Both the position numbers and the translations under genes were made by a program. A stretch of 64,000 nucleotides of DNA from Gracilibacter sp. BRH_c7a (GTDB lineage: Bacteria; Bacillota; Desulfitobacteriia; Desulfitobacteriales; Syntrophobotulaceae): contig LOEZ01000055.1 in the NCBI GenBank assembly GCA_001516055.1, positions 1-64,000 on the forward strand, in the 5' to 3' direction. Below, piece by piece: positions 4,178 to 47,953 of this stretch (its first letter is position 1; each line of letters starts with the position of its first letter). The notes under the pieces are model-generated. The model saw nothing but the letters and a program-made list of their open reading frames with translations. It was not told the origin of the DNA and did not search any database.

Positions 4178-4221
4178 GAGCCATTATGAAACGAACTAGT
4201 AATTTCGTTTCATAATGGCTC
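4178..4221 (+). terminator. Strong hairpin after the MBL gene
   Basis: A perfect 18-bp inverted repeat (4178-4195 pairs with 4204-4221, 8-base loop) lies 59 bases after the MBL stop and is followed by CTATTTTAT. The stem is long and only moderately GC-rich, and the U-tract is weak. It most likely ends the fixCX-acyl-CoA synthetase-MBL transcript, though a stem this long and perfect could also be a mobile-element scar. Confidence 0.6.
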
Positions 4222-4500: not shown

Positions 4501-5043
4501 TTTGAATTTATTTGTGCTTATCTAATAATATCTATTGCTAGACTACTTAGCATTTAAAATAATAGTTTCTTAAACAATACAAAATATAAACTCAACTTCC
4601 AATATTATACTTTAATCGTTTATTCGTCATGTTGAAAACACCAGAGTAGCTAAGCAATTATATAGTTATACAGTTATTAAACAGCATAGTTAATGCAGCA
4701 CAATTTATAGACCAGGTAAAACCATTCATTAAGGAAGAATTATAAACGCCTCACAGGGAAAATATAAGGCTGGTATTAAGATGTAAATTAAAAATATTTA
4801 TGAACCCCGGCTCAGAACAAAAGTGCAATTAACAAAAAAATATTTCTATCTCCGCTATCTACTTTACATAATATTTATTATAGGACGCAATAAATTTATA
4901 ATGCAATCAAAAAGTATTATTTGAGATCGTTCAGGTTAGGTTAACTAAATACGTATTCACATCTAGAAACACAACTCCATCTAAAATTCATTTACATGTT
5001 AGCTACCCTTCCCTGTTCCTCAACATTGACAAGTATATACAAT

Positions 5044-5068
5044 AGCAGCCCTCTTATAGAAGGCTGCT
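5044..5068 (-). terminator. Terminator of the lipoprotein cluster
   Basis: Read on the minus strand, AGCAGCC-TTCT pairs with AGAG-GGCTGCT around a 3-base loop, giving an 11-bp stem with one G-U pair. It is followed by AUUGUAUAUACUU. It lies about 45 bases beyond the stop of the last lipoprotein gene. The U-tract is interrupted, so strength is uncertain. Confidence 0.65.
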
Positions 5069-5113
5069 AAAGATTTTATAGTAGATGTTTTTCATGGGGA
5101 TATCAAAATCTGA

Positions 5114-6772
5114 TTAGAATGGTAATTTAATGGCATATACCTTATTCTCTTCATTCATCTCCGTAAACGGTATCCTATAGGTCTTGCCGGAAAAATCTTG
5201 GAATGTGATCTCATCGACAGAAGAGTCTGCCGGAAAACTGCTTAAGACTTCAATGTACGCATCCTCAATTGTGTCAGCAACTTTATATTCTGTATATGCC
5301 GCGTTCATATCCGATTTGGTTCGGAACTTAACATTATGGATCGTACCCGCTACCGCTATATTGTAAGGAGTATTATTGTTGGAGTAAGCCGGGTTTTCAA
5401 AGCTCATGCCATATCTGAAAGGATATTTACCGGTTTCAGCAGGGTAATTTTGAATAACTACACAATAATAGCGTGGATATTCCACATTATACCCATGAAT
5501 TGATTCTTGCAGCGATTTTTCATCTACTCCATTGGAATCCATCTCAAAGGTGTATAGCTCAACACTTGTTGTCTTGGTTGGTGCCTGGTTGGGAGATGTA
5601 CTTTGCTCTGGAGTTTGCTGGGAAGAACTGCTTTGATTGAGTTTGGCATCAACCTGAGACTGCCAATCGCCTGATTCCTCTAGAACTACTAGCTGCTCTC
5701 CACCAGGGGTAACCACTTGATAAACCATGGTTGGTTTCCCTGCACTATCTAAAGAATTCAGTTCGAGAACAATATGATCAGCGTAAGGACCATGGCTACT
5801 ATTTAAGATTGTAACCAAAGCACCTTCTTCAAAATAAGAATCCTCAAACGTATTCAGATCAACAACACGTGTACGATAGTTATTCGCACCATAGCCACTG
5901 GAGCGGTTAAAGGTGTTATCTGTTGAATAATACACTTTCGTTCCATCATTGGACACTGTGGGATAGTGAATTGCAGCTATTGAATTCGTCCAGTCTTCGT
6001 CACGATCAACTGATTGTACCAATAATCTTTTTTGTCCATTTGTATATACCATAGATAAATAATGGACAGGAACACCTTTTGTTACCTCTTTAGTTTTATC
6101 TTCTTCAATAAGAAGCTCGAATCCGTTTCCTCCAGCATAAGTTCCTAGCTCCATTCGCCCATTATCAGGAGCGATATTTTCAGGTTCGTTTTCAGTTTGG
6201 GCTTGGGTTTCAGTTCCGAGTTCTATTTCATTGCCATCCTTAACCGCAATGAGGGCATACTTTTTTGCAAATTCATCATTAGGTGCTAATTGAATTTTAT
6301 ATCGATTTTGGTTAATCCATAATCCACAATATACATTTGGCTTCCCTCCAGGAGCGTTGGTGAAGGTTAATAACGTGTTGCTTATCTTGTTTGCTATTTC
6401 TTTAGCATCTCCACCACCACCTGTTTGATACTCTCCTGTTACGAACTCCAAGTCTTGGGCTTCACCGAATATCGCTACGGTGTAGGTCGAGCTACCACCG
6501 CCAATATTAATTTCCTTTTTCTCCAGCTTGTCGAGATACTTCCCTGCGTAATCTTTTACTGCAACAAAATCATAGTCATCTAAAACTACTTCTACACCAG
6601 CAAGGGTTTCTACCATTGGTGATACGTCCGGTTGGTCCGTTTGGTTCGTTTGGTTCGTTTGGTTCGCTTGTTCATTAGGGTCTTCGGGTTTAGGTCCGGA
6701 AGCTTCCTGGGAGCAGCCGGCTAAAAATACTACCATAAGAATCATACAGATAATCGTGAATAATTTCTTCAT
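5114..6772 (-). CDS. Lipoprotein A of the tandem cluster
   Basis: A 552-residue predicted lipoprotein with a lipobox ending FLAGC at Cys20, so it should be anchored to the outer face of the cytoplasmic membrane. After the Cys comes a low-complexity linker with an NQT repeat (residues about 36-48) coded by 9-base tandem repeats. The middle part (about 200-370) has beta-rich stretches such as YTNGQKRLLVQSVD and SNDGTKVYYSTD, like the blades of a propeller or PQQ-type fold. The C-terminal 150 residues end in KLPF and resemble in layout the end of lipoprotein D, which also ends in LPF. No enzyme motif is recognised. It is the last gene of the cluster and lacks the KSEEELRAE linker of its neighbours. 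Confidence 0.75.
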   Translation of the reverse strand: MKKLFTIICMILMVVFLAGCSQEASGPKPEDPNEQANQTNQTNQTDQPDVSPMVETLAGVEVVLDDYDFVAVKDYAGKYLDKLEKKEINIGGGSSTYTVAIFGEAQDLEFVTGEYQTGGGGDAKEIANKISNTLLTFTNAPGGKPNVYCGLWINQNRYKIQLAPNDEFAKKYALIAVKDGNEIELGTETQAQTENEPENIAPDNGRMELGTYAGGNGFELLIEEDKTKEVTKGVPVHYLSMVYTNGQKRLLVQSVDRDEDWTNSIAAIHYPTVSNDGTKVYYSTDNTFNRSSGYGANNYRTRVVDLNTFEDSYFEEGALVTILNSSHGPYADHIVLELNSLDSAGKPTMVYQVVTPGGEQLVVLEESGDWQSQVDAKLNQSSSSQQTPEQSTSPNQAPTKTTSVELYTFEMDSNGVDEKSLQESIHGYNVEYPRYYCVVIQNYPAETGKYPFRYGMSFENPAYSNNNTPYNIAVAGTIHNVKFRTKSDMNAAYTEYKVADTIEDAYIEVLSSFPADSSVDEITFQDFSGKTYRIPFTEMNEENKVYAIKLPF

Positions 6773-6828
6773 AAAACTACCTCTCTTTTCTACTTAGATT
6801 TAAATAATGAAAAGGTTGATCCCATTTG

Positions 6829-7971
6829 TCATAACGCTTTCCATTCCACATAGAAGATTTCCATGGTTTGTAAGTCTATATAGTATTTGATCTCACCATC
6901 TCCGCCTTCTTTGGTTATTTCATAAAAATAGATCTTAGCACCGTCTTTTTCCGCTCTTGATACATAAAAACTAGTTTCTGGTCTCTTGAGGAGTGCTTCC
7001 GGATAAGTAACCATATAGAATTCTTCAGCTTTGATCAGTGTCTCTGTTTTCCCGTTATAGCTGATATTGAGACTGTCGTCTTCTGCCTGACAGGTATAGT
7101 TATTGATAAAATCATCGTTGATTGGAAAGCTTACTTTTAATTCCTTTACCCTTTCTTCCCCTTCTACATAATTGATCTTTACAGGTAACACAAGGGTGGT
7201 TTTCCATACGTTCTCATTATCAAAGAGCTTAAGCTGAGCCGGGTCCTCAATATATACCTGCGCATATCCCTTTTCAAGTGCTTCGAAGGAATTAAAAGGT
7301 TTATCCATGGAGGTATAGTGAACGTTAGGTATGATAATAGGATCTAATGAATGGTACTCTGGTGCCTCATTTGGATAAATCATATCCAGGGCTTTTTTGA
7401 GCTTAGCGGCGATATCCGGATGGATAGTGAGTGTAAATTGATCGTGATACACGCCATCTGTTGATGAGGCCCAATATCTCATAGCAAGCGTGAGTAACTC
7501 TGTATTTTCTAATTTCTTCAGAGTTTCTAGTAAGTACTGGTCTCCATTCAAATTGACTGGAATACTGCCGTTCTCAGGTACGTATTCTTCATAAGACAAG
7601 CTCATAATGATAGGTTCATAAACCTGGTACATTTGTTCCCGCATTTTATCAACGGTCTTTTGAGCAAACTCTTTTTTCATATCTTCAGAAAAACCATCAT
7701 AGTTTTCGTCAAAGTACTCTATAACAGGTGTTAGGTGAGTTCCGTCATATACGTCTTCAAATGTCTTCAGGGTCCGAGTCTCATCTTTTGGGTCTTGTTC
7801 GTCTTCCTGCTTAGCTTGTTGTTCCTGATCTTTATTCGCTTCTGCTTCCATTTCGGCTTTGATCTCTGCTCTGAGTTCCTCTTCTGATTTTTGACTTGAG
7901 GCTTGCTCCGAACAGCCTGCTAAGGATACCAGCAGGAAGACGATGCAGATTATGGATAACGCTTTTTTCAT
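6829..7971 (-). CDS. Lipoprotein B of the tandem cluster
   Basis: A 380-residue predicted lipoprotein (lipobox SLAGC, Cys20). Directly after the Cys it carries the cluster's shared module KSEEELRAEIKAEMEAEA followed by a Gln/Glu/Asp-rich linker, a short charged helix that probably lifts the outer domain off the membrane. The remaining 300 residues are a mixed alpha/beta domain I do not recognise. It shows no catalytic motif and no repeats. It lies 83 bases downstream of lipoprotein C and 56 bases upstream of lipoprotein A on the same strand. A sensing, binding or cell-wall role is possible but not supported by any motif. Confidence 0.75.
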   Translation of the reverse strand: MKKALSIICIVFLLVSLAGCSEQASSQKSEEELRAEIKAEMEAEANKDQEQQAKQEDEQDPKDETRTLKTFEDVYDGTHLTPVIEYFDENYDGFSEDMKKEFAQKTVDKMREQMYQVYEPIIMSLSYEEYVPENGSIPVNLNGDQYLLETLKKLENTELLTLAMRYWASSTDGVYHDQFTLTIHPDIAAKLKKALDMIYPNEAPEYHSLDPIIIPNVHYTSMDKPFNSFEALEKGYAQVYIEDPAQLKLFDNENVWKTTLVLPVKINYVEGEERVKELKVSFPINDDFINNYTCQAEDDSLNISYNGKTETLIKAEEFYMVTYPEALLKRPETSFYVSRAEKDGAKIYFYEITKEGGDGEIKYYIDLQTMEIFYVEWKAL

Positions 7972-8054
7972 GTAGCTTCCCCCTCCCTTTCTTTGTCTTT
8001 GTTTAAATTCATATTAGCTTGTTTAGGTGAAGGATTAGCAACCCAGGGAGTGGT

Positions 8055-8729
8055 TTAAATTCTTTTAAATGTGTCCATTATTTCTTCTAATAAAATATAA
8101 CCCTCATCCTCTTCATATAACGATTCTGATGATTCTAAAAATTTATATCCGCTTAACATTAAGACAAATTCTTCATTATATTCATAAATATCATTTAATA
8201 TAACAGCTGCACCTTCTTGACCATCTATAACATTAATAACACGAAGCCCATTATTTATTTTTACGCTTTTACTTGAAACAATATCTGGACTTTTTAAATA
8301 CCCTTGACTATCTTCATTAGTTAATAAAATAAATCCTATTTTTAAGTACTTTGAGTAGTCTTCATTATTATTAATATCTCCACCTATCTGAGGAGTATCT
8401 CCGGGCTCTGACCACACGTCATTTTTCCAATCTTCAGGATATTCGGTTTGGAATTTCAAATTTTCATTTGTATACGAAGTCCATCCGTCTTTTGGTTTTT
8501 GCTCGGGTTCTTGTTTATCGTTTTGTCCTTGATCTTTCTTAGCTTCAGCTTCCATCTCAGCCTTGAGTTCTGCTTTTAACTCTTCTTTAAGTTTCGCTTC
8601 TGCTTCCATCTCTGTTTTAATCTCTGCTCTAAGTTCTTCCTCTGATTTTTGACTCGAGGCTGGCGTGGAACAGCCTGCTAGTGTAATCAGCATTAACGCA
8701 ACACACAAAATTGTTATTATTTTTCTCAC
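8055..8729 (-). CDS. Lipoprotein C, PsbP/Mog1-like outer domain
   Basis: A 224-residue predicted lipoprotein (lipobox TLAGC, Cys20) with the shared KSEEELRAEIKTEMEAEA module, here extended by a second copy-like KEELKAELKAEMEAEAKKD segment, so the charged helix is about twice as long. The outer domain (about residue 80 onward) begins WTSYTNENLKFQTEYPEDW, which fits the start of PsbP/Mog1-like domains common in small Firmicutes lipoproteins. No enzymatic residues are visible. It lies between lipoproteins D and B in the same direction. The domain call is by pattern only. Confidence 0.72.
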   Translation of the reverse strand: MRKIITILCVALMLITLAGCSTPASSQKSEEELRAEIKTEMEAEAKLKEELKAELKAEMEAEAKKDQGQNDKQEPEQKPKDGWTSYTNENLKFQTEYPEDWKNDVWSEPGDTPQIGGDINNNEDYSKYLKIGFILLTNEDSQGYLKSPDIVSSKSVKINNGLRVINVIDGQEGAAVILNDIYEYNEEFVLMLSGYKFLESSESLYEEDEGYILLEEIMDTFKRI

Positions 8730-8874
8730 AACAAACTTCCTCTTCTATTTTTTCATTTTATTTTGACGTAAGAATTTAAGAGTTAGAAAACAATCTATTA
8801 CTTAACGATATCTAACTGCTCTTTGAATAGTTATATATTTCAGATATCAATCGTGTATTTCTATACTGAAAATT

Positions 8875-10620
8875 TTAGAAAGGTAACTCCTTAGGGAAAA
8901 CCTGGGCACTACCCCGATTGAAAGTCACATGTTGAACATGTCCGTTGGGGTATACCACATCGCCTTCAAAGATTATACCTCGGAAAGACTCTATTACCGG
9001 AGAGCTACTGTCATACTTGACCGTGAGACGTGCATTATTAAAAGTACCTAAGTTACTCCCTTTTGAAGTGGGAGCACTCTGTCCACCACTTCTATAGTCG
9101 CCAATTGCAAATTTAACCGTAACATTTTGAACTTCTCCAATGATGTGAAAAGTCTCTTCCGTATTGGCATTTTCATACTTATAGGTCTTCGATGTTAACT
9201 TAGACTTATTTGGTCCATTATAGTCTCCTGGCAGTATTACCACTCTGCTTTGTGAATAATCAATATAGGTTCCGTTATAAGTTTCGTTAACAAACCCATC
9301 TTCGCTTGTATTGGAAGTATTGGTATCCGTATTAGGGTTTGTATTATTGCCCGTATTGGGGTTTGTATTTGTGCTGGTATTCGTACTTGTATTGCCGGAA
9401 AAGCTGTAGGTCTTACCGCCAATCACTGCCTGCGTGTGGGATAAGTTTTGAATATCTGCATTGAATAGATCTGCAGTGTCATTGGCTACCCCTATTTTCG
9501 TTATTCTGTCCGAATCTACTTTAAAGAAATATACTTCATCATTGTTGGGCGGATCGGCTACAAACATGGCAATATGATACTGATTATCTTCACTGCATTT
9601 GACCAGTTTATATTTGTTAAATACGAGTTCCTTGTTTATGACTATGCTGAAAAGTTCATATTCTGTTTTTTCTGGGTCATAGAGGCTGGGGTGATCATAC
9701 CCGTTAAGTACTACTTTCAGCCAATATAAATCATTAATAAGGGTAAAGGTATCCACGATACCATCGCTATCTAAATCATATCTATATTCTTTGTTGAACT
9801 CATAGGATGAAAGCAGGACAGGCTTAGCTGCTGTACTGCCGGTATTGGTATTATTACTGGTATTACTGGTATTACTGGTATTGCTGCCTTGAGCTGGTTG
9901 GCTGGACGCACCTTGATTCGCACTGGCTGTTTGGGTTCCCAATGTTTTGATATCAAATTTCATATTATTTGGATTGTAAGTATACTGTTCTTTCGTTTCA
10001 GTAGTTGTCTTGTCTGTTTTCTTATCATATTTGGTTACAGTGTAGGTAAAATCGGTTAATTTCCCATCAATCTTTCCTATCTCTTCGAATTGGGCGTTAG
10101 GGAACTCAACAACATGATGAAGCAGAAGTCTATCTAAAACCTCAACCATTTTCGAGCCATCATAAGCATATAAGCTTAATTCTTCGAACTGCTCTCCTGT
10201 GCCACCAGTTCCAGAGGTTAACGCTAAGAAGCCATCCATTAATTCAGGGGTATTGCTATGTTTTCCCAGATATATTTCTGAGGGTATCCTCTCGAATTCA
10301 CCATTATCTTTGCTGATAATTTCCACTTTATCGTACCAGTCAGTCCCATAGGAGTCGACAAGAACTGCCTCCTCTGTACCATCACTGGTAATATCAAAGT
10401 AGTAGACTTGCCATTGGTCAAATCGTTCACTCGATATATCTACTATTTCTTCTTTGACATATTGATGAAGCGCACTCTTATTTTTAATATCTGTCTCAGA
10501 TTCCATCCGTGCTTTGAGTTCAGCTTTTCTTTCTTCTTCGCTGTTTTGCGGCGAACTGCAGCCTGTTAGGCCAGTCAGGACTAACCCAATGATAAGTATG
10601 ATTGCAATGATTTTTTTCAC
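8875..10620 (-). CDS. Lipoprotein D with Asn/Thr/Ser-rich linkers
   Basis: A 581-residue predicted lipoprotein (lipobox GLTGC, Cys21) with a shortened shared linker (NSEEERKAELKARMESE). Domains in order: an N-terminal domain with ITSDGTEEAVLVDSYG, like FG-GAP/VCBS-type Asp-rich loops (about 60-200); a Thr/Asn/Ser repeat linker (about 235-265); a domain starting YRYDLDSDGIVDTF with a Ca-binding-like DxDxDG loop (about 275-400) that is clearly homologous to the C-terminal domain of lipoprotein E; a second NTST/NPNT repeat linker; and a beta-rich C-terminal domain ending in ELPF. It lies 16 bases downstream of lipoprotein E, so the two are probably cotranscribed. Function is unknown. Confidence 0.75.
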   Translation of the reverse strand: MKKIIAIILIIGLVLTGLTGCSSPQNSEEERKAELKARMESETDIKNKSALHQYVKEEIVDISSERFDQWQVYYFDITSDGTEEAVLVDSYGTDWYDKVEIISKDNGEFERIPSEIYLGKHSNTPELMDGFLALTSGTGGTGEQFEELSLYAYDGSKMVEVLDRLLLHHVVEFPNAQFEEIGKIDGKLTDFTYTVTKYDKKTDKTTTETKEQYTYNPNNMKFDIKTLGTQTASANQGASSQPAQGSNTSNTSNTSNNTNTGSTAAKPVLLSSYEFNKEYRYDLDSDGIVDTFTLINDLYWLKVVLNGYDHPSLYDPEKTEYELFSIVINKELVFNKYKLVKCSEDNQYHIAMFVADPPNNDEVYFFKVDSDRITKIGVANDTADLFNADIQNLSHTQAVIGGKTYSFSGNTSTNTSTNTNPNTGNNTNPNTDTNTSNTSEDGFVNETYNGTYIDYSQSRVVILPGDYNGPNKSKLTSKTYKYENANTEETFHIIGEVQNVTVKFAIGDYRSGGQSAPTSKGSNLGTFNNARLTVKYDSSSPVIESFRGIIFEGDVVYPNGHVQHVTFNRGSAQVFPKELPF

Positions 10621-10636
10621 TTATTTCTCCTCCTGC

Positions 10637-11791
10637 TTATTGACCAAAAATAAACGCTTCTCCCGCAAAATTTGCCTCGCTCCGGGACAGACCCGCTTCA
10701 CAATTAAAGAAGTCATCAAACTCGTAGTTAAACATCCCTAAATCTACTGTAGCAACACCTAACACTTTCAACTCTTCCGCTTCTTTTTGGCCAGAAGTAT
10801 ACTTATCATATCCTTTGTATTCATACTCTAAGAAATAGACTTCATAGTCATTGGGTGGAGAAGCTACATAGAGAGCAAGCGCATATTTATTGCTGTCGTA
10901 TATGTTTATAAGCTTATATTTAAAGTAAAGCAATTCGGGCGTTATACTTTCGAGGGCGACGCTATAACCCCATTCATTGATGAAAAGATCAATATAGCTT
11001 CCGTCTGATTCCAGAGAAAATGTATCAATTTTTTGATCACCATCGAGATCGTATTGATATTCTTTATTAGCTTCATAAACACCAAGCAGTTGGGATTTTG
11101 GTTGGGGATTATCCTGAGTTGGAGGGGTTGTATTTGAAGAACTAGTACTGCTGCCCGAATTTGAATTTAGACTTACGAATTCGCAGCCGGTTTCATTGTA
11201 GTCGGACTTGGCCCAAGCGCTTAGGTTTTTAACTTTGATCGTTGCGCTTACTCTTTGGAAATTTTCTTTGATCTCTTTGACAGTGCTGGCAGGCAGAGAA
11301 TTATAAAAGCTATCATAATTCTTGAACCATAGAGCTCCTGGCTTATATGATAAGTTCTCATTGATTGAATCAAGCACAATAGCTGGGAGACTAGTATTGT
11401 CCGTAATTTCAAACCATAAACTGCTCGTGAAATCATCGTAGTAAATCTCCCCTGTGAGCGTAGCATTCCCTTGCAAATCAAATTTTGCTTCACTTTGAGA
11501 TGTAGTAATGTTACCAATGGTAAATGAGCCAACCGTATCTCCGTCATTTAAGCCGGATAAGCGGTATGTATTTGCCGTGGTGGAATTATTTGCGTCGCTT
11601 TTCCCTGTGTCATCTGAGCTTTGTTGATCTGTGGCTTGCTCATTTTGCTGCTCGGCTTCTGCTTCCAGTTCTGCTTTGATTTCAGCTCTTAACTCCTCCT
11701 CGGATTTTGGATTAGAGGTTTCCTGTGCGCTACAGCCAACCAAGGATAAAACCATGACAATTACGCAGATCATACTATAAAACTTTTTCAT
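10637..11791 (-). CDS. Lipoprotein E of the tandem cluster
   Basis: A 384-residue predicted lipoprotein (lipobox SLVGC, Cys20) with the shared KSEEELRAEIKAELEAEAEQQ module and a Gln/Ser/Asp/Asn-rich linker. Residues about 75-210 form one domain (LSGLNDGDTVGSFTIGNI onward). A Ser/Thr/Pro linker follows, then a domain beginning YEANKEYQYDLDGDQKIDTF that matches the central domain of lipoprotein D, including the Asp-rich loop and the phrase ASPPNDYEVYFLE. This is the first lipoprotein gene of the cluster, 90 bases after the DUF2442 gene. It has no recognised catalytic residues. Confidence 0.75.
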   Translation of the reverse strand: MKKFYSMICVIVMVLSLVGCSAQETSNPKSEEELRAEIKAELEAEAEQQNEQATDQQSSDDTGKSDANNSTTANTYRLSGLNDGDTVGSFTIGNITTSQSEAKFDLQGNATLTGEIYYDDFTSSLWFEITDNTSLPAIVLDSINENLSYKPGALWFKNYDSFYNSLPASTVKEIKENFQRVSATIKVKNLSAWAKSDYNETGCEFVSLNSNSGSSTSSSNTTPPTQDNPQPKSQLLGVYEANKEYQYDLDGDQKIDTFSLESDGSYIDLFINEWGYSVALESITPELLYFKYKLINIYDSNKYALALYVASPPNDYEVYFLEYEYKGYDKYTSGQKEAEELKVLGVATVDLGMFNYEFDDFFNCEAGLSRSEANFAGEAFIFGQ

Positions 11792-11881: not shown

Positions 11882-12115
11882 TTATCTTTCTATCAGATTG
11901 ATAATTTCGTCAATCGTTATTTGGCATAAACTATCCCATATAAGATTGTTGCCGTTTTCAATCTTAACTGATTTGAACATGTCTAAATCAGCAAGCTTAC
12001 AGAATCTAACTGACTCTAATCTCGGCTTCATATCCATGATAATTTTGTGAGCGTTATCCAGTTCTATCAGCAAGGTATAATCATCTTTGGGAATGATGTT
12101 AGTTATTTTGGACAT
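11882..12115 (-). CDS. DUF2442 small protein
   Basis: A 77-residue protein matching the DUF2442 pattern: an N-terminal strand with YTLLIELDNAHKIIMDMKP, then FCKLADLDMFKSVKIENGNNLIWD. DUF2442 proteins are often encoded beside toxin-antitoxin or DUF4160 genes, but no such partner is seen here. The start at MSKITN is chosen because AGGAGG lies 6 bases upstream; a longer frame starting further upstream would run back through the terminator and reach the regulator gene. It sits between the MalT-like regulator and the lipoprotein genes. Function is unknown. Confidence 0.75.
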   Translation of the reverse strand: MSKITNIIPKDDYTLLIELDNAHKIIMDMKPRLESVRFCKLADLDMFKSVKIENGNNLIWDSLCQITIDEIINLIER

Positions 12116-12137
12116 TATCTTCCTCCTAAAAAGACAT

Positions 12138-12168
12138 AAAAAACTCTGCCAACGTAATACTAGCAGAG
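12138..12168 (-). terminator. Terminator after the MalT-like regulator
   Basis: On the minus strand GCTCTGC and GCAGAG pair across a 13-base loop (stem arms 12163-12168 and 12144-12149), followed at once by six U residues (12143-12138). This is a good intrinsic terminator between the regulator stop (12214) and the DUF2442 ribosome site. It may also act as an attenuator controlling read-through into DUF2442 and the lipoprotein genes. Confidence 0.8.
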
Positions 12169-12213
12169 CTTCTTCACTCGATAAATTATCGGATGAGATA
12201 CTTTTTTGAATTT

Positions 12214-14709
12214 TCACGAATAATCTGGTATAAGTTTAAAATCAAGTGCCTTCTTTACAGCAGCCGCTCGTCCTGATACATTTAATTTCCGATAAATCGA
12301 GGTTATATTTTTTCTAACGGTAACTTCTGCAATAAAAATATGCGCAGCGATTTCTTGATTGGTTCTTCCCTCAATAATATGTTTGAGAATTTCCTGCTCG
12401 CGTTCAGTCAGTAATGGCGGGGATTTTATATCCGTTAATTCATCCCGCTTGGAATAAATCTTTGTTACAACTAATACAAGCCGATTCATATATGAATCTA
12501 TTGTTGTGCTTTTTTTAGCATCTTTCTGCAGTTCTTTAAGTATTACGAGCACATCTGCATCATATTCCGCAAAGGGCAGCACTATATCATCAGCTTTTCC
12601 AATCTCTAAAGCAAGAAGCATCGCTGTTTTCGCTTCAGTCATGCCGTACAGCCTGTATTTGGCAGCTGCCTCTAATATATAGCAATGCAGAAACCCCAGC
12701 TGATTGTTAAATAAAGAGAAAGCACCCCGCATATCCTCACAAAGGATTTCTAATTGCAGATAACTTTTATTCAGCAATAGGTATTTACCATAGATAAGAT
12801 AGTTGAACCCTATCCCCTGATACAATATCTCACACTGTTGTAAATCACCAATCTTCAGCCAATCGGCAAAATTACGTTCTTTTCCGGTGATACCCCCGAT
12901 ATATCCTGCACACAGGTCGAAAGCACTGCTTAAGATTGGACTGTTGCTTGTCTCTACTTCAGTGTTTAACTGATCTATTATCTCCTGGGATTTATCAAAC
13001 TGACCTCGTGCCGCACATACTCGGGCGAGAACGAGATCGGCACATATTATGACCGCAATCTGTTCCATGGTTTTCGCCTTCAAAATTGCTTTGTGAGCTT
13101 CGATTTCTGCTCTTTTTAAATCCCCGGTTTCCAGATAATATTCTGCTTTCAGGAGGTTATCAAACCCCTTGCCACAGCCGCCTGCTAAATCCATGTAATA
13201 AGGAAACATCTGTTCAACAGTTCTCATCGTCGCCAGCAGCTTTCCTTTTTCCTTGTAATACAAATAGAGAGAATGGGTAGAACCAAACGTTATAATTTTA
13301 TCCTTATTCGCTATCGAAGAGCGGCCATCCAGTAACTCATGTGCCTTAGCCAGTTTATGATGCATCAGTGCAGCATCATTAAATTCTGCATAGGCTCTAA
13401 TCAACTCGATTTCTCCATTAATGCGTTTCTTCATATGCGCAGAGATATTCGTATCGTCTTGATAATAGGTGTCGATTTCTACTAAAAGACGGAACCCCTC
13501 TTCTTTGTCTACATTTGTCACGTAAAAACTCGTATAAGCCAGATATCCGATAGGATGACGATACCTTACTTCACTAGGTATATATTTAAATATTTCCAAG
13601 ATAAACTTGGAATGATTATCTAAAACTAAGTTTATACTACTTTTCTCAAATTCCCCCATAACCAGATCGTATTCATGAGCTATTAAGAAGTGTTTTAAAC
13701 CTAAAACAATATCCTCATTATCGATATACCATATACCGGCTTTCTTATGTAATTCTTTTCGTGCAATTTCTAAGGGCTGTTGTTCAATTAACTTTTTCAA
13801 ATAACTTTTAAAGATATTATGTATTCTATAAACGCCTTCTTTTTCATCATACCGGATGAAAGAGTTGCCGTTGCTTATATCTTGTATGATCCTTTCCGTT
13901 GCTGCGTCGTTGGTTACATATACGGCTTGGTCTGGTGTGAAGCTGTCAAATACAGAAAGCAGCTTTAATATCATTAACTCTTTTTCTGAATACCGTGGTA
14001 TAACTGCAGTTTCAATGAGTTTTTCGATACTGCTTCCCGACTCGACAATGCCAATTTCACTATATCTTTGCATCATGAGATATACGGCTGATATCCAGCC
14101 TTCAGATATCTTATGAACCCGCTGTGCAATATCATCAGAAATACTATGTCCATTCAGCAAAAAGTACTGCTTTACTTCTTCTTGACTTAACTCGAATAGA
14201 TGATGTTTTAACAGATAGCAGTATCCTTTTAGCGTTAATTCATCAACATTGATCTCGGGGATGGTCCTTGAGAGGATAACGATATGCAGCCCTTGAATAC
14301 GAGCTCTCACAATTATTTCCAGCATTTGATTAAGTTCATAAGCCTGATTAAAATGATAGTCGTCAATTACTATTATAGTATTTACTAGGGCGGTATAATC
14401 TTCGATTATCTTGATTACTTTATCTCTTTGTGGTGTATTTATCGGAAATCCTAAAGTATTTAATTGTCTGCCTAGTTTTGGTACGGCTTTAATAAGCTGT
14501 CGTGTAAGGGAGTCCCAGATATATTGGGGAGATGATTCATCACTCCCAACGGTTAGCCATATATAGTTTTTATCCGCTTGATCGAGAAAGTCTCTTACGG
14601 ATGTAGTCTTGCCATAACCCATGGCTGCCACAATGATGGTTAGTGGGTAAGCAAAAATGCTATTGAGCTTTGTACTAATTTGTTTCCGCTTTAAGATAAA
14701 CCGCTGCAC
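12214..14709 (-). CDS. MalT-like LuxR-family transcriptional regulator
   Basis: An 831-residue STAND-type regulator. The N-terminal NTPase domain has a Walker A AAMGYGKTT near residue 30 and Walker B-like TIIVIDDYH near 115. A winged-helix and long TPR-like helical sensor region follows (about 330-740). The C-terminus is a LuxR helix-turn-helix (TEREQEILKHIIEGRTNQEIAAHIFIAEVTVRKNITSIYRKL). Such proteins bind an inducer through the TPR part, oligomerise with ATP and activate promoters. It starts at a GTG with AAGGTGGG upstream. Its position ahead of the lipoprotein array makes it the obvious candidate to control it, an inference from gene order. Confidence 0.85.
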   Translation of the reverse strand: MQRFILKRKQISTKLNSIFAYPLTIIVAAMGYGKTTSVRDFLDQADKNYIWLTVGSDESSPQYIWDSLTRQLIKAVPKLGRQLNTLGFPINTPQRDKVIKIIEDYTALVNTIIVIDDYHFNQAYELNQMLEIIVRARIQGLHIVILSRTIPEINVDELTLKGYCYLLKHHLFELSQEEVKQYFLLNGHSISDDIAQRVHKISEGWISAVYLMMQRYSEIGIVESGSSIEKLIETAVIPRYSEKELMILKLLSVFDSFTPDQAVYVTNDAATERIIQDISNGNSFIRYDEKEGVYRIHNIFKSYLKKLIEQQPLEIARKELHKKAGIWYIDNEDIVLGLKHFLIAHEYDLVMGEFEKSSINLVLDNHSKFILEIFKYIPSEVRYRHPIGYLAYTSFYVTNVDKEEGFRLLVEIDTYYQDDTNISAHMKKRINGEIELIRAYAEFNDAALMHHKLAKAHELLDGRSSIANKDKIITFGSTHSLYLYYKEKGKLLATMRTVEQMFPYYMDLAGGCGKGFDNLLKAEYYLETGDLKRAEIEAHKAILKAKTMEQIAVIICADLVLARVCAARGQFDKSQEIIDQLNTEVETSNSPILSSAFDLCAGYIGGITGKERNFADWLKIGDLQQCEILYQGIGFNYLIYGKYLLLNKSYLQLEILCEDMRGAFSLFNNQLGFLHCYILEAAAKYRLYGMTEAKTAMLLALEIGKADDIVLPFAEYDADVLVILKELQKDAKKSTTIDSYMNRLVLVVTKIYSKRDELTDIKSPPLLTEREQEILKHIIEGRTNQEIAAHIFIAEVTVRKNITSIYRKLNVSGRAAAVKKALDFKLIPDYS

Positions 14710-38333: not shown

Positions 38334-40508
38334 ATGAATATTTCAAAAAAACAGCTTCTTTTTTATTTTGCGATCACATTTTTATTTTTTGGACTCATAT
38401 ATCCTAGTTATTCATTAGCTTCAACAGGTGAAACTGCTGAGATCCAACGGTTCTCCGGACAGAATCGTTATCAGACTGCAGTACACATCGCTCAAGAACT
38501 AAATAATGGCCCAATTCAAAGCGTCATCATATCATCAGGACTTAATTTTCCTGATGCCCTCTCCGGCAGTGTATTAGGAGTAAAAAACAATGCACCGATC
38601 CTCTTAGCTGGAAAGTCACTTTCCGCTTCTCAAGATACGATGGATTATGTCAAAAAGAATCTTGATAAAAACGGAACAATATATCTTCTTGGTGGAACAG
38701 GAGTTATTTCAACAGAGTTTGAAACAAAATTCGCTGAGCTTGGTTTTCATAATGTTGTTAGACTCGGTGGCAACGACAGATATGAAAGCTCAGCCCTCAT
38801 CGCTGAGCAACTCAATGTGCCAACAGGCACTCCTGTTTCAATCGTTTTTGGAGGTAATTTCCCTGATGCTCTGGGCATATCTAGTTTTTCTGCTAATAAA
38901 GGATGGCCTATTCTGCTCTCTAAAACAAATGAATTACCTGATGAAATCAAACAATTTATTGCTGAAAAATCACCAAGTCGTATTTTTATTGCAGGTGGTA
39001 CAGGTGTAATCTCAGAGAAAGTTAGACAAGAGATACAGGCTGCGGTTCCTAATGCTACGGTCGAAAGATTTGCAGGAAAAGACAGATTTGAAACATCATC
39101 TTTAATAAATGATTATTTTGCACCAAATCCTTCTCAGGTCTACCTCACTTCCGGCCTGAACTATCCGGATGCTCTAACAGGAAGCATCCTTGCCGGTAAA
39201 AACGCTGATCCTATCGTATTGATTGATCCAAAAAACCAGTATATTCCTTTATCAGTCGAGAAGTACCTGAAAGCCAATTTAAATATTAACTCCTTCAACA
39301 TTACTGCATTAGGTGGTACTCAAGTTGTTCCCGACCATTTAGTCAGCCAATCCCTGCTTGGGGTAGAAAGAAAACCAGTATTCTTACCATCAAGCATGAG
39401 CAGCAGTAAAGGCTTCTCTATCGCCAGTGTTCCAACCTCTACCGGAACTCTTGAATTTACAGCTTCAGTCTCGACAAATACGAAAACCGTCCTTTTGGTG
39501 ATTAAGAAAGACGGTAAAGAAGAGATAATCCAAGCTAATGTCCTTAACGGAAAAGTGACAAAAAATATATATCCGCGCTTGGGTCCTGGATATTATACAA
39601 TATCTGTTTATGAAAGTTCTGATCCGAACCAATCCAATACCGATAATGCCTCAAAACAGGAGACTTTCACAATCTACTATTCGGGGACTGAAGGTTTCTA
39701 CGATCAAGAAACTATTAATAGCCTGGTAAATTTAGATATCCCGACCTACGAAGAGATCCAAACGGCATGGCTCCATATCACCAAAACAGATGGAGACACC
39801 AGAGGAGCTATCGATGACTATTATCTTCCGGTAGACGGAAAAATTTCTCATCAGATCTTCCTGCGATATGGTCCCGGAACCTATCAGATTAGTGTCTATG
39901 AAAGCTCTAACCAGGAAGGTTACCGCCCTGGCCCTAGCTTTACCGTGATAAATAAAGATACTCGTGATCTGACCTATTCCGGTCGGAGCTACTGGGTTCA
40001 GTCCGATGATCCTGCAGCTATCCAACTCGCACAGCAAATTACTGAGGGAATATCCGATGATCTCGCTAAGTCCAAAGCAATCCACGACTGGGTGTCCACC
40101 AATATCACTTACACCGACCAGGTCTCTGCCAATACTTCTTTCAAAGCCATGGAATACGCGGAAGCTAACTCTGGCGGCTACGCAGCCCTCACAGCAGCTT
40201 TACACCGGGCTGTTGGAATCCAAGCCAAGGTGATAGTAGGTTATACGATAGGATTTGGGGCAGATCCCGGAACGTGGGAAGAATTCGATGAGCAAACCTC
40301 CAATTATCCAATAAAGTATTGGAATGAGATTCTGATAAACGGACAATGGATGAACGTCGATACTTTATGGGATTCAGGAACCTTGGATTCTGAAATGGTT
40401 TTCACACCACTAGTTAGTGATAAGTACTTTAACCTTAGTGATGAGGAATTCTTTAAAGACCATAGAAAACTTGTACTCTCTGAAGGCTCAAAATCTATAC
40501 CATGGTAA
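38334..40508 (+). CDS. Secreted CWB2-repeat protein with degenerate transglutaminase domain
   Basis: A 724-residue secreted protein. A signal peptide (about 1-30, ending LASTG) precedes three cell-wall-binding type 2 repeats (about 38-345; QRFSGQNRYQTAVHIA, VRLGGNDRYESSALIA, ERFAGKDRFETSSLIN), which bind secondary wall polymers. Two related beta modules follow, each with a YGPG-type signature (LGPGYYTISVYESSD and YGPGTYQISVYESSN). The last 160 residues are transglutaminase-like (AIHDWVSTNITYTD), but the catalytic Cys position reads Ser613 in ANSGGYA and the His position reads Lys in KYWNE; only the Asp (VDTLWD) remains. It is probably a structural or ligand-binding S-layer-associated protein rather than an enzyme. 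Confidence 0.9.
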   Translation: MNISKKQLLFYFAITFLFFGLIYPSYSLASTGETAEIQRFSGQNRYQTAVHIAQELNNGPIQSVIISSGLNFPDALSGSVLGVKNNAPILLAGKSLSASQDTMDYVKKNLDKNGTIYLLGGTGVISTEFETKFAELGFHNVVRLGGNDRYESSALIAEQLNVPTGTPVSIVFGGNFPDALGISSFSANKGWPILLSKTNELPDEIKQFIAEKSPSRIFIAGGTGVISEKVRQEIQAAVPNATVERFAGKDRFETSSLINDYFAPNPSQVYLTSGLNYPDALTGSILAGKNADPIVLIDPKNQYIPLSVEKYLKANLNINSFNITALGGTQVVPDHLVSQSLLGVERKPVFLPSSMSSSKGFSIASVPTSTGTLEFTASVSTNTKTVLLVIKKDGKEEIIQANVLNGKVTKNIYPRLGPGYYTISVYESSDPNQSNTDNASKQETFTIYYSGTEGFYDQETINSLVNLDIPTYEEIQTAWLHITKTDGDTRGAIDDYYLPVDGKISHQIFLRYGPGTYQISVYESSNQEGYRPGPSFTVINKDTRDLTYSGRSYWVQSDDPAAIQLAQQITEGISDDLAKSKAIHDWVSTNITYTDQVSANTSFKAMEYAEANSGGYAALTAALHRAVGIQAKVIVGYTIGFGADPGTWEEFDEQTSNYPIKYWNEILINGQWMNVDTLWDSGTLDSEMVFTPLVSDKYFNLSDEEFFKDHRKLVLSEGSKSIPW

Positions 40509-44844: not shown

Positions 44845-45855
44845 TTATGATTCAAAGTATAAATGAGTTGTGATTAAAGCTGTTAGTAAGTCGATGCCAG
44901 CTGTTATATCCTTTTTACCCACTATTTCATTACCACTATGCAGATATCTGACAGGAATAGCCAACCCTCCTGTCGGGATCCCTCCCTTGGTAAGATGGAT
45001 AGGCCCGGAGTCAGTACCCCCAGCTGTAATTATTTCCCATTGATGAGGAATGTCACTAGCCGCTGCTATTTTGGCCATCCAGTTTTTAATGGCTGGCGAC
45101 ACGACGATGGATTTATCCATGACTTTGATAGCTACGCCGTTATTTAAGGAGACACGGTTATTTTGTACTTTTGGTGTATCATAGCTAAAAGTGGTATCGA
45201 TTATTATAGCTAGATCAGCTTCAATAGCATAAGCTGCAGTTTTGGCACCCCTGGCCCCTACCTCTTCTTGGGCGGAAAAAACAAAGTAGAGGTCATAAGG
45301 GCTAGTTACAGTTCTGATAACTTCCAAGGCGATAAAACAGCCTATTCTATCGTCTAGCGCTTTGGAAATAATTACACTATCGTTTTCCAAGAAGTCTCCT
45401 GAGATAACTGCCATATCTCCGACTCTAACTAATTCTTTAGCTTCCTGCTCGTTAGCTGCTCCTATATCTATATATAGTTTTTCAGGTTTCTTATCAATTG
45501 TCTCATCTTTTTCTTTGTGGATTATTCCGACAGTTCCATTACTGAAGATAACTCGTTTGGAGATCATATCTGTATTTTTCAGTCCACCCACGGTCGCATA
45601 ATAGAGAAAGCCATTCTTGTTAATATGAGTGACTATTATGCCGACTTCATCCATATGACATACAATCATTATCTTCTGTTCATTACCTTTTTTTCTGACT
45701 ATTAAATTACCCATGGTATCAGTGACTATGGATTCAACATAATCTTTTACATTATCAGTGATGATTTCAGCTACTTGTTGTTCATTTCCGGAAGGACCAA
45801 AGGCTTGAGTTAGCTTAGCTAACAAACTATAATCAAAATCTCTATTCATGCTCAT
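44845..45855 (-). CDS. M42-family aminopeptidase (third of three)
   Basis: A 336-residue dinuclear metallo-aminopeptidase of the M42 (TET/PepA-glutamyl) family. Metal and catalytic residues: CHMDEVGIIV, ALDDRIGCF, the SAQEEVGARG glutamate pair, VIIDTTF and RYLHSGNE. M42 enzymes form dodecameric shells that trim short peptides in the cytoplasm. The ATG at 45855 overlaps the stop of the preceding gene by four bases (ATGA) and has GGGAGG seven bases upstream; a longer frame starting earlier has no ribosome site. It is the last of three coupled paralogues. Confidence 0.92.
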   Translation of the reverse strand: MSMNRDFDYSLLAKLTQAFGPSGNEQQVAEIITDNVKDYVESIVTDTMGNLIVRKKGNEQKIMIVCHMDEVGIIVTHINKNGFLYYATVGGLKNTDMISKRVIFSNGTVGIIHKEKDETIDKKPEKLYIDIGAANEQEAKELVRVGDMAVISGDFLENDSVIISKALDDRIGCFIALEVIRTVTSPYDLYFVFSAQEEVGARGAKTAAYAIEADLAIIIDTTFSYDTPKVQNNRVSLNNGVAIKVMDKSIVVSPAIKNWMAKIAAASDIPHQWEIITAGGTDSGPIHLTKGGIPTGGLAIPVRYLHSGNEIVGKKDITAGIDLLTALITTHLYFES

Positions 45856-46901
45856 TTCATAACCTCCCAACCTCGATGAGGTAAGTTGATGTATTCTTGA
45901 CAATTGTTCAGGATGAGATTTATCAATTCTATACAATTTGTGTAATCTGATTGAGAAATAACGGAACTCATGGAATGAATATATCGGCAAGGTATGCTAA
46001 TTGTGATGGTAGGAATACCGGCTCCTGCTAAGTGGATATTACCTGCATCGTTAGCTGCGGCAGTTCCTTCTCTAAGCTGTAACGGTATCCCGTAGCTTTC
46101 AGCTATTTGAATTGTTTTTTTAATCAGTTCAGGTCTGTAGATTGTTGCTTGATCCATCAGGGAACAGGCAGGTCCTTGCCCAAGCTCTACTACCCAATTC
46201 TCTCTGTCTTGTTCCTGATTGTCCATGGCTGAAGTAGTTTCTACGACGATGGCCAAATCGGCATTCAGATAATTACTGATTATTTTAGAACCACGAAGAC
46301 CTAGCTCTTCTTGAACAGTAAAAACTGTGGTCAGGTCACAATTATATTGTTGTTTTAATAATTCCATTATTACCGCACAACCTGCTCTATTATCCAAAGC
46401 TTTACCTTTATAGAATCCGGAACCGAAACTTGTAAAGGCTGTGGTGAACCCAGCATAGTCTCCAAGTTTGACATTCTTTTCCGCTTCTTCTTTCGAGTTG
46501 GCTCCAATATCTATGTATAATTGGTCGATTAGGAAACTTTGTTTGCGTTCTTCAGGTTTCTGAAGATGAATTGCCTTGGAACCTATAACTCCATAAACAC
46601 TGTTATTAATAATTACCGGCTTGGAAACCAGGATATTGACATCCATGTAGCCGATAGTTTGAAACTTAAGATACCCTTCGGAAGTAATCTCAGTAATAAA
46701 TAACCCGACTTCATCCATATGGGCAGTGAGCACTACCTTTATTGCTGGATTACTTTTGCCCTTCTTAGTAGCCAAGAGATTGCCTATCTTGTCAACTCTA
46801 TAAGAGTCTACGTTATTATCTATGTTCTCAATGATATAGTCTCGAACATCTTTTTCATTTCCGGAGACTCCATGCAATTCACTCAAGTATTTTAAGAACA
46901 T
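45852..46901 (-). CDS. M42-family aminopeptidase (second of three)
   Basis: A 349-residue paralogue of its neighbours with all M42 residues: AHMDEVGLF, ALDNRAGC, TVQEELGLRG, VVETTSA and CRYIHSMSSV. In the metal-bridging position it has Glu (VVETT) where the other two have Asp (IIDTT, AIDVT), which may change metal choice or specificity. GGAGG lies seven bases before the ATG. It overlaps the upstream gene by ten bases and the downstream gene by four, so the three proteins are probably made together. Confidence 0.92.
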   Translation of the reverse strand: MFLKYLSELHGVSGNEKDVRDYIIENIDNNVDSYRVDKIGNLLATKKGKSNPAIKVVLTAHMDEVGLFITEITSEGYLKFQTIGYMDVNILVSKPVIINNSVYGVIGSKAIHLQKPEERKQSFLIDQLYIDIGANSKEEAEKNVKLGDYAGFTTAFTSFGSGFYKGKALDNRAGCAVIMELLKQQYNCDLTTVFTVQEELGLRGSKIISNYLNADLAIVVETTSAMDNQEQDRENWVVELGQGPACSLMDQATIYRPELIKKTIQIAESYGIPLQLREGTAAANDAGNIHLAGAGIPTITISIPCRYIHSMSSVISQSDYTNCIELINLILNNCQEYINLPHRGWEVMK

Positions 46902-47953
46902 GATATATCCTCCAAATCATCAGGCAGAGCGGCAATAAATCTAGCCAAAAGTTTGCCACAACTGACTACATCTTTCAATGAAACAGTTTCTACTGAAGTA
47001 TGCATATATCGTAGAGGGATGGATAAAAGTCCTGTAGGAATCCCAAATGAACTTAATTGAATTATACGCGCATCTGTTCCTGTAGGTCCGGCAACAGCCT
47101 GAACCTGGTAGGGCAGATTATTATCTTGAGCACAGGCGGTTAGGAGAGCGTGCATGGTTGGATGGATGTTCGGGCCAATGGTTATTGCTGGACCTTTCCC
47201 TAAATGGATTGAAACTTGATTCTTAGCATCGATTGTTTGAGCATGGGTAACATCAATAGCTACTGCAATAGTCGGGTTCAGCTTTTCTGTACTAGTCTGA
47301 GCACCTCTTAACCCCACTTCTTCTTGGACAGTAGTGACTGCAATTACGTTATGTTTGTGTTTAATGCTGTTAAGTTCACTCAGACAAACCGCCATCACTG
47401 TAATCCCTGCTCTATTATCAAGTGATTTTCCAGCTATAGTCTGATCAAGCAGATCTAGAGTAGCTCTGTTGATACTTACAATATCTCCAGGCTTCACAAG
47501 GCTCTGAGCTTCTTCTGATGAGTGACCGATATCAATAGCCATCTGATGAAGCTTAACACTTTTTTTCTTATCACTTTTGGTTTGGTCGGGTTGAAAGGAG
47601 ATTATCCCCGGTAAATCTCTGCTGCCGTGGACCGTAACTTCTTGATATAACAAGGTTCTATCATCAATGCCACCTATAGGTGAAAAGTGAATGAACCCTT
47701 TCGAATCAATATGCGTTACCATTAAACCTATTTCATCTGAATGAGCAGCTAACATAACAGTTTGATTATTACTTGCGTATCCATTTTTAACCGCATAACA
47801 ATTATGCATATTATCGGTATATATATCGTCAACCAAGGGTTTGAAGGTTTGTTCCAGGCTTGGAAATAATTTATATTCATAACCTGAAACGCCAGGTTTT
47901 CCAGCTAATAAATGAATCGTCTCTTGGGCTAGCTGCAGATGTGGTTTCGTCAA
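46892..47953 (-). CDS. M42-family aminopeptidase (first of three)
   Basis: A 353-residue M42 peptidase that starts with TTG after AAAGGAAG. Its motifs are AHSDEIGLM, SLDNRAGI, TVQEEVGLRG, AIDVTHAQ and LRYMHTSVE. In the first metal motif it has Ser where the paralogues have Met (HSDE versus HMDE). It lies 24 bases after the spoVD-like PBP stop, so the peptidase run may be read from that gene's promoter. Together with the next two genes it could form a mixed peptidase shell. Confidence 0.92.
   Translation of the reverse strand: MTKPHLQLAQETIHLLAGKPGVSGYEYKLFPSLEQTFKPLVDDIYTDNMHNCYAVKNGYASNNQTVMLAAHSDEIGLMVTHIDSKGFIHFSPIGGIDDRTLLYQEVTVHGSRDLPGIISFQPDQTKSDKKKSVKLHQMAIDIGHSSEEAQSLVKPGDIVSINRATLDLLDQTIAGKSLDNRAGITVMAVCLSELNSIKHKHNVIAVTTVQEEVGLRGAQTSTEKLNPTIAVAIDVTHAQTIDAKNQVSIHLGKGPAITIGPNIHPTMHALLTACAQDNNLPYQVQAVAGPTGTDARIIQLSSFGIPTGLLSIPLRYMHTSVETVSLKDVVSCGKLLARFIAALPDDLEDISCS

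Follow-up and report, generated by a model that had tools for sequence, protein, structure and literature searches.

A block of five tandem lipoprotein genes lies on the minus strand of a contig from Gracilibacter sp. BRH_c7a, and the block represents one local set within a family of modular lipoproteins for which we found no published description. The window that we analyzed is the whole stretch of 64,000 nucleotides (nt) at positions 1 to 64,000 of contig LOEZ01000055.1 (assembly GCA_001516055.1), numbered from its first letter; every gene, domain, and terminator-like element of the block described below is on the minus strand. The open reading frames (ORFs) follow one another in the order E-D-C-B-A. 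Lipoprotein E (10637-11791; 384 amino acids [aa]) is the first lipoprotein gene in the block, and it is followed by D (8875-10620; 581 aa, with a GTG start), C (8055-8729; 224 aa), B (6829-7971; 380 aa), and A (5114-6772; 552 aa), with intergenic gaps of about 16 to 145 nt. All five lie 3' of a gene for a MalT-like (LAL) LuxR-type regulator (12214-14709; GerE, 54.5 bits) and of a DUF2442 gene between that regulator and E (11882-12217; Pfam score of 25.3 bits, cutoff of 23.9). In 5/5 proteins, the N-terminal hydrophobic segment ends in an L-[AVT]-G-C-S lipobox, and all five are thus predicted from sequence to be lipidated.

Four of the proteins, B, C, E, and the more diverged D, begin with a common anchor-helix module, which consists of a signal peptide, the lipobox cysteine, a linker of ~8 residues, and a Glu/Lys/Arg/Ala-rich helix of roughly 19 to 41 residues, of which KSEEELRAEIKAEMEAEA is an example. 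The module occupies positions 11654-11791 in E (profile score, 95 bits), 7837-7971 in B (94.9 bits), 8541-8729 in C (recognized by the same profile), and 10492-10620 in D, where the copy has diverged (NSEEERKAELKARMESE) but is clear in the protein profile (77.5 bits). A shared N-terminal part in these four genes had been proposed in an initial annotation of this DNA, and alignment confirms it, at the DNA level for B, C, and E and at the protein level for D. The modules of B and C are 84.5% identical over 97 nt (E=4e-27) and those of C and E 78% over 64 nt (E=2e-11), while B and E are 70.6% identical over 163 nt (E=3e-16), a similarity that begins ~20 nt 5' of the start codon. The double length of the helix in C, also remarked on previously, results from an in-frame 54-nt (18-codon) direct repeat with copies at 8542 and 8596. 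Full-length matches to the module profile in the 4.1-Mb genome of the organism are limited to B, C, D, and E; A retains only the signal peptide and lipobox part (6683-6772; 39.5 bits, model positions 1-30), and the next match after the window proteins (28.6 bits) is confined to the lipobox region.

The module profile detected 41 proteins in 12 genomes, among them Desulfosporosinus, Natronincola, Maledivibacter, and Marinisporobacter, often in tandem. It was present in 4/74 genomes of the organism's own order, in 3/398 genomes of a phylum sample (own genome included), and in 7/297 genomes of Natronincola's order; a scan of 84,980 species recovered ten loci, which is a lower bound because a single short peptide pattern was used. 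The module therefore spans several families and orders, patchily, and is not specific to one family as had been supposed. Tandems of 2 to 4 members occur in several taxa: Natronincola peptidivorans (4), Maledivibacter halophilus (3), Soudan_17 (3), G571 (3), Marinisporobacter (2), CSMAG_113 (2), and G508 (2). Desulfosporosinus Soudan_1 has 3 members with signaling genes interspersed, and single members also occur away from clusters. Our search of open-access papers turned up neither the helix motif nor any account of the family.

Beyond the module, the proteins draw on a recurring deck of outer domains, which we defined by iterated profiles from the window proteins and their relatives and named D1, DE2, V, P, E1, B, S, K, F, X, and C; the search database consisted of the loci fetched for the module, and domain frequencies apply to those loci. 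Nearly all of the 41 module proteins bear 1 to 3 of these ~11 domains in changing combinations, and at E<0.001 the deck profiles matched none of 304 random-window ORFs and none of 304 reversed proteins. In the window, E joins the module to E1 (11207-11560; domain profiles and BLAST) and DE2 (10709-11086; D/E alignment and domain profiles), and D joins it to D1 (9946-10482; matched in Soudan_17), DE2 (9415-9813; profiles and BLAST), and V (8965-9303; domain profiles), the last close to the LPF end of the protein. Single outer domains follow the module in B (6832-7785) and in C (8058-8501), the latter seen only here. Further orders elsewhere include D1-DE2 in Natronincola, D1-E1 in Soudan_17, and D1-P-V in Maledivibacter, G501, and G571, as well as K-S, K-E1, E1-V, and E1-F.

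The main relationships among these domains are visible to plain BLAST with the module removed: D matches Soudan_17 (59% identity over 188 aa; 2e-54), Natronincola (39% over 364 aa; 8e-61), and E (30% over 162 aa; 2e-17); B matches a Natronincola kinase (26.6% over 203 aa; 4e-15); and E matches a Natronincola E1 protein (30% over 158 aa; 3e-14). The sharing of an outer domain by D and E, noted in the initial annotation, corresponds to DE2 (30% over 157 aa; E=5e-20), and the similar LPF ends of A and D reflect a common V domain of ~110 aa, present twice in A, although the V-domain links of D and A depend partly on profiles. Neighbors without the module also bear a V or P domain in two other loci (L071:9012-10025 and L125:5727-7391), so the deck is also used outside the lipoproteins.

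Searches of Pfam (5 window proteins and 10 relatives) and NCBIfam (10 proteins) gave no match to the outer domains above the cutoff. Two earlier domain assignments were not upheld: for the supposed PsbP-like domain of C, PsbP_2 (PF18933) scores 16.8 bits against a cutoff of 27, and a Ca-loop domain in the window lipoproteins finds no support among Pfam models. Structure prediction, which had been suggested for comparing the outer domains, returned a confident, mostly beta model of D1 (predicted local distance difference test [pLDDT] score of about 90 over 1-187) and a poor P-V model. Foldseek and VIA matches of D1 to propellers are only middling (Z up to 8.6), and we claim no fold for it. No sequence relatives with solved structures were found for D1, E1, or C; matches to solved structures for S, V, and F are weak and short, some of them to designed proteins, with the exception of an SH3-like tail in F.

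The low complexity of charged helices and the existence of lone members away from clusters would fit an explanation with no special system at all, in which Glu/Lys/Ala-rich spacers arose repeatedly, by convergence, in unrelated lipoproteins. We regard this as quite improbable: the DNA identity runs from upstream sequence into the helix, which contradicts convergence for B, C, and E, and the module is rare in the phylum sample while nearly all of its bearers carry deck domains.

Lipoprotein A, which has a signal peptide, lipobox, (NQT)n linker, and V-P-V domains without the helix, is a special case. Its relatives in Desulfosporosinus Soudan_1 and UBA8487 have a full or partial helix followed by a P domain. 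Alignment of A with the Soudan_1 relative covers residues 1-31 and resumes at 186. The NQT-rich linker and V domain in between (residues 32-185) thus occupy the place of the helix. The linker is encoded by four copies of a 9-nt tandem repeat (6626-6670) at the helix position, and the first V domain (6362-6616; domain profiles and alignment to relatives) is inserted at the helix site of the relatives. Downstream lie the P domain (5630-6172; domain profiles and a low-confidence model), with propeller-like blades, and the second V domain (5177-5527; domain profiles), which ends in LPF. TolB/PD40 scores 14 bits for A against a Pfam cutoff of 20.9, and the propeller model (pLDDT, 65) matches TolB with a Z of 9.1 over 118 residues (root mean square deviation, 3.1), tied with many other propellers. 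The genome also encodes a helix-less paralogue of A, with an orthologue within the genus; each of the two is located between amino-acid permease-like and glyoxalase-like genes. The homologue of A in Desulfosporosinus UBA8487 (L042:3121-4409) is split between two frames, by a frameshift mutation or through a sequence error.

Module similarity follows the cluster, even where the outer domains are unrelated. Among pairs of proteins that share no outer domain, module identity averages 57.9% aa inside one cluster but 47.2% both between separate loci of one genome (p=0.0014) and between genomes (p=3e-5); these pairs are not fully independent, as close relatives are included (Marinisporobacter and G571; Maledivibacter and G501). 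The nearest module by DNA is in the same cluster in 11/41 cases versus 1.3 expected (p=2e-4), a common outer domain does not significantly predict the nearest module (p=0.09), and three reciprocal nearest pairs, B/C, Natronincola 1/2, and Soudan_1 1/2, carry unrelated outer domains. These data are evidence that the cassette is an exchangeable unit inside clusters, whether by duplication with outer-domain replacement or by gene conversion. The anatomy of the family and its domain shuffling are well supported, and the duplicated surface module with domain exchange that the initial annotation described is upheld well beyond its own genome.

Conserved leaders joined to unrelated outer parts also characterize the Vsp and Vpma lipoprotein gene clusters of Mycoplasma bovis and M. 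agalactiae (PMC2268961), in which the 5'/N-terminal region is conserved. An antigenic or phase-variable surface system of this type, its outer parts switched by recombination, would account for the conserved upstream and N-terminal DNA of the window genes, and a variable surface system had been one of the original suggestions. We rejected a phase-variable coat and consider it very improbable here. No recombinase was recognized in the flanks, where genes were judged from their translations and nine proteins were Pfam-scanned; no inverted repeats or inversions were seen at the window modules; and all five genes are intact, each with its own start site and outer domain. The likeness is thus limited to the conserved leader: the outer parts of Vsp/Vpma are lineage-specific variants, whereas the outer domains of the window are shared across orders. 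A parallel in spread is the PARCEL repeats (PMC2996958), 25-residue palindromic amphipathic units that form a short module shuffled among surface lipoproteins in patchy taxa. The unit in the window differs in that it combines an anchor and a charged helix; C alone has a direct repeat (18 codons), and no palindrome or dyad symmetry was detected within the module DNA. The alanine-zipper family Lpp/OprI (NF040598) likewise has a short lipoprotein N terminus followed by a helix, but C scores 20.7 bits against it, well under the curated cutoff of 43. To our knowledge, Lpp/OprI proteins have no outer globular domain.

The block probably ends at a terminator-like hairpin 3' of A (5069-5043, read on the minus strand; 5043-5069), which has a 12-bp stem and a T-rich tail (z=-3.7 for window 5030-5113) and would mark the end of the transcription unit. 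A ~0.9-kb AT-rich stretch without a long ORF separates lipoprotein A from a perfect 18-bp inverted repeat with a T-rich tail (4178-4221), which follows a metallo-beta-lactamase-fold gene. Two other features of the window were read from the sequence. The protein encoded at 38334-40508 has repeats of the cell-wall-binding-2-like kind and ends in a transglutaminase-like part, and a tandem of three M42-type aminopeptidase-like ORFs lies at 44845-47953, the first two of which, as listed, overlap by ~140 nt, probably the result of a start called too early.

MalT-like regulators are common. The one in the window is linked to the lipoproteins by gene order, from which their control by it may be inferred, as the initial annotation proposed; elsewhere, most clusters show two-component genes or no regulator, and in one Desulfosporosinus-order genome, G046, a MalT-like gene (31% identity) lies ~4 kb from the lone family member. 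Weak matches of the MalT-like protein to CARF/Cas3 (E 7e-7 to 4e-4) were taken to reflect shared helix-turn-helix and ATPase parts, and we rejected a defense system; PADLOC matched none of the five lipoproteins.

One link to signaling is a 739-aa fusion protein in Natronincola, which consists of a degenerate module (33.2 bits), D1, B, one transmembrane segment (478-504), and HisKA-HATPase, with an OmpR-type regulator gene nearby. The B domain of the window and the D1 domain of lipoprotein D thus recur as the outer part of a histidine kinase. In a second arrangement, found in Desulfosporosinus Soudan_1, Maledivibacter, and G501 (twice), a protein with SBP_bac_3, GGDEF, and EAL domains adjoins members together with a response regulator and a kinase. 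Within the 14 member genomes searched, 4/4 copies of this protein stand beside a member, and the linked kinases share 52-62% identity at three loci, a figure that drops to about 28-33% for the fourth. Neither the GGDEF nor the EAL motif is intact in any of the four copies (L066:4010-6811, L073:9231-12008, L128:9065-11914, and L129:4750-7344). We therefore rejected active cyclic di-GMP signaling by this neighbor: it is probably not a cyclic di-GMP enzyme, because both motifs are lost in all copies, and it looks like a dead one serving as a sensor. Members of the K-E1 and K-S types in G571, Marinisporobacter, and CSMAG_113 have a second kinase/regulator family next to them, the CSMAG_113 pair being about 41%/74% identical to those of the other two genomes. 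Sigma-factor-like genes, recognized by reading the sequence, occur close to module lipoproteins at L066:465-1801 and L130:6322-7095, with a possible anti-sigma gene also in L066, and they represent a further kind of regulator near such lipoproteins.

The best reading of these data, in which we place about even confidence, is that the proteins constitute a modular lipoprotein family, not described before, whose members act as surface sensors or accessory sensors. Among the coat, sensor set, and variable surface system that had originally been suggested, a sensor set fits best, given the kinase fusion and the two recurrent two-component linkages, from which a sensory function is inferred. Several observations weigh against this assignment. 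The assignment draws on gene context and one fusion, and no ligand-binding site or catalytic residue was identified. No two-component genes lie near the window cluster, where the neighbor is the MalT-like regulator, and a distant SBP-GGDEF-EAL relative in G605 (28%) has no nearby member. General proximity to kinases fails as functional proof: any kinase plus regulator lies within 4 kb at 8/24 loci, which is not significantly more than the 3/20 random G571 windows (p=0.15), and several of the 8 loci are orthologous to each other.

A possible, though doubtful, alternative is that these are structural or adhesive wall lipoproteins, whose stalks and outer domains attach to peptidoglycan, wall polymers, or minerals while nearby regulators only control expression. 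The SH3-like tail of F (weak; E=0.013), the propeller-like blades in P and D1 (middling Z), the tandem multicopy arrangement, and the differing kinds of nearby regulators are all in keeping with it. It accounts less well for D1 and B making up the outer part of a histidine kinase and for the recurrence of the pseudo-GGDEF-EAL and kinase subfamily beside members in distant taxa, both of which would still be compatible with a wall ligand acting as the signal.

Precedents for accessory-sensor lipoproteins exist. QseG of the QseE/QseF system in E. coli (PMC6075780) and SaeP of SaeRS in Staphylococcus aureus (PMC5083920) are each encoded with a kinase/regulator pair and set the activity of the kinase. 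The present proteins, likened to these by arrangement, are predicted to be lipid anchored outside the membrane, with a kinase/regulator pair alongside in the loci of relatives, and contact with a kinase would find its analogue in the D1 and B domains that form the outer part of the Natronincola kinase. QseG and SaeP are single proteins with the kinase pair adjacent, whereas up to five tandem members with a shared anchor-stalk cassette and exchangeable domains occur here, and the window cluster has no neighboring kinase.

A common N-terminal cassette is joined to 1 to 3 domains from the deck. Under the sensor or accessory-sensor reading, the lipid anchor would keep each protein on the outside of the membrane, and the charged helix may act as a stalk that raises the outer domains into or through the wall, where they could recognize signals from the wall, polymers, or solutes. 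Depending on whether they are bound, the lipoproteins would then change a membrane signaling partner, putatively the two-component kinase and pseudo-GGDEF-EAL protein in several relatives and, in Natronincola, the fused kinase. The window set would be produced along with the MalT-like regulator. Tandem duplication and outer-domain swapping would fit the set to the habitat. More speculatively, the family may be a combinatorial extracellular sensory kit, in which outer sensor domains are swapped on a lipid-anchored stalk via recombination at the stalk DNA and several are run beside a shared signaling core (a kinase and dead GGDEF-EAL protein, or a MalT-like regulator), with occasional fusion to a kinase; we advance this broader model only tentatively.

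If these interpretations are correct, a lipoprotein family with ~11 undescribed outer domains is missing from Pfam and NCBIfam, and it would exemplify how Gram-positive-type bacteria can shuffle domains on a fixed anchor with no dedicated recombinase. The pairs of lipoprotein and kinase would likewise provide material on how surface lipoproteins signal to two-component systems, with QseG and SaeP as worked examples.

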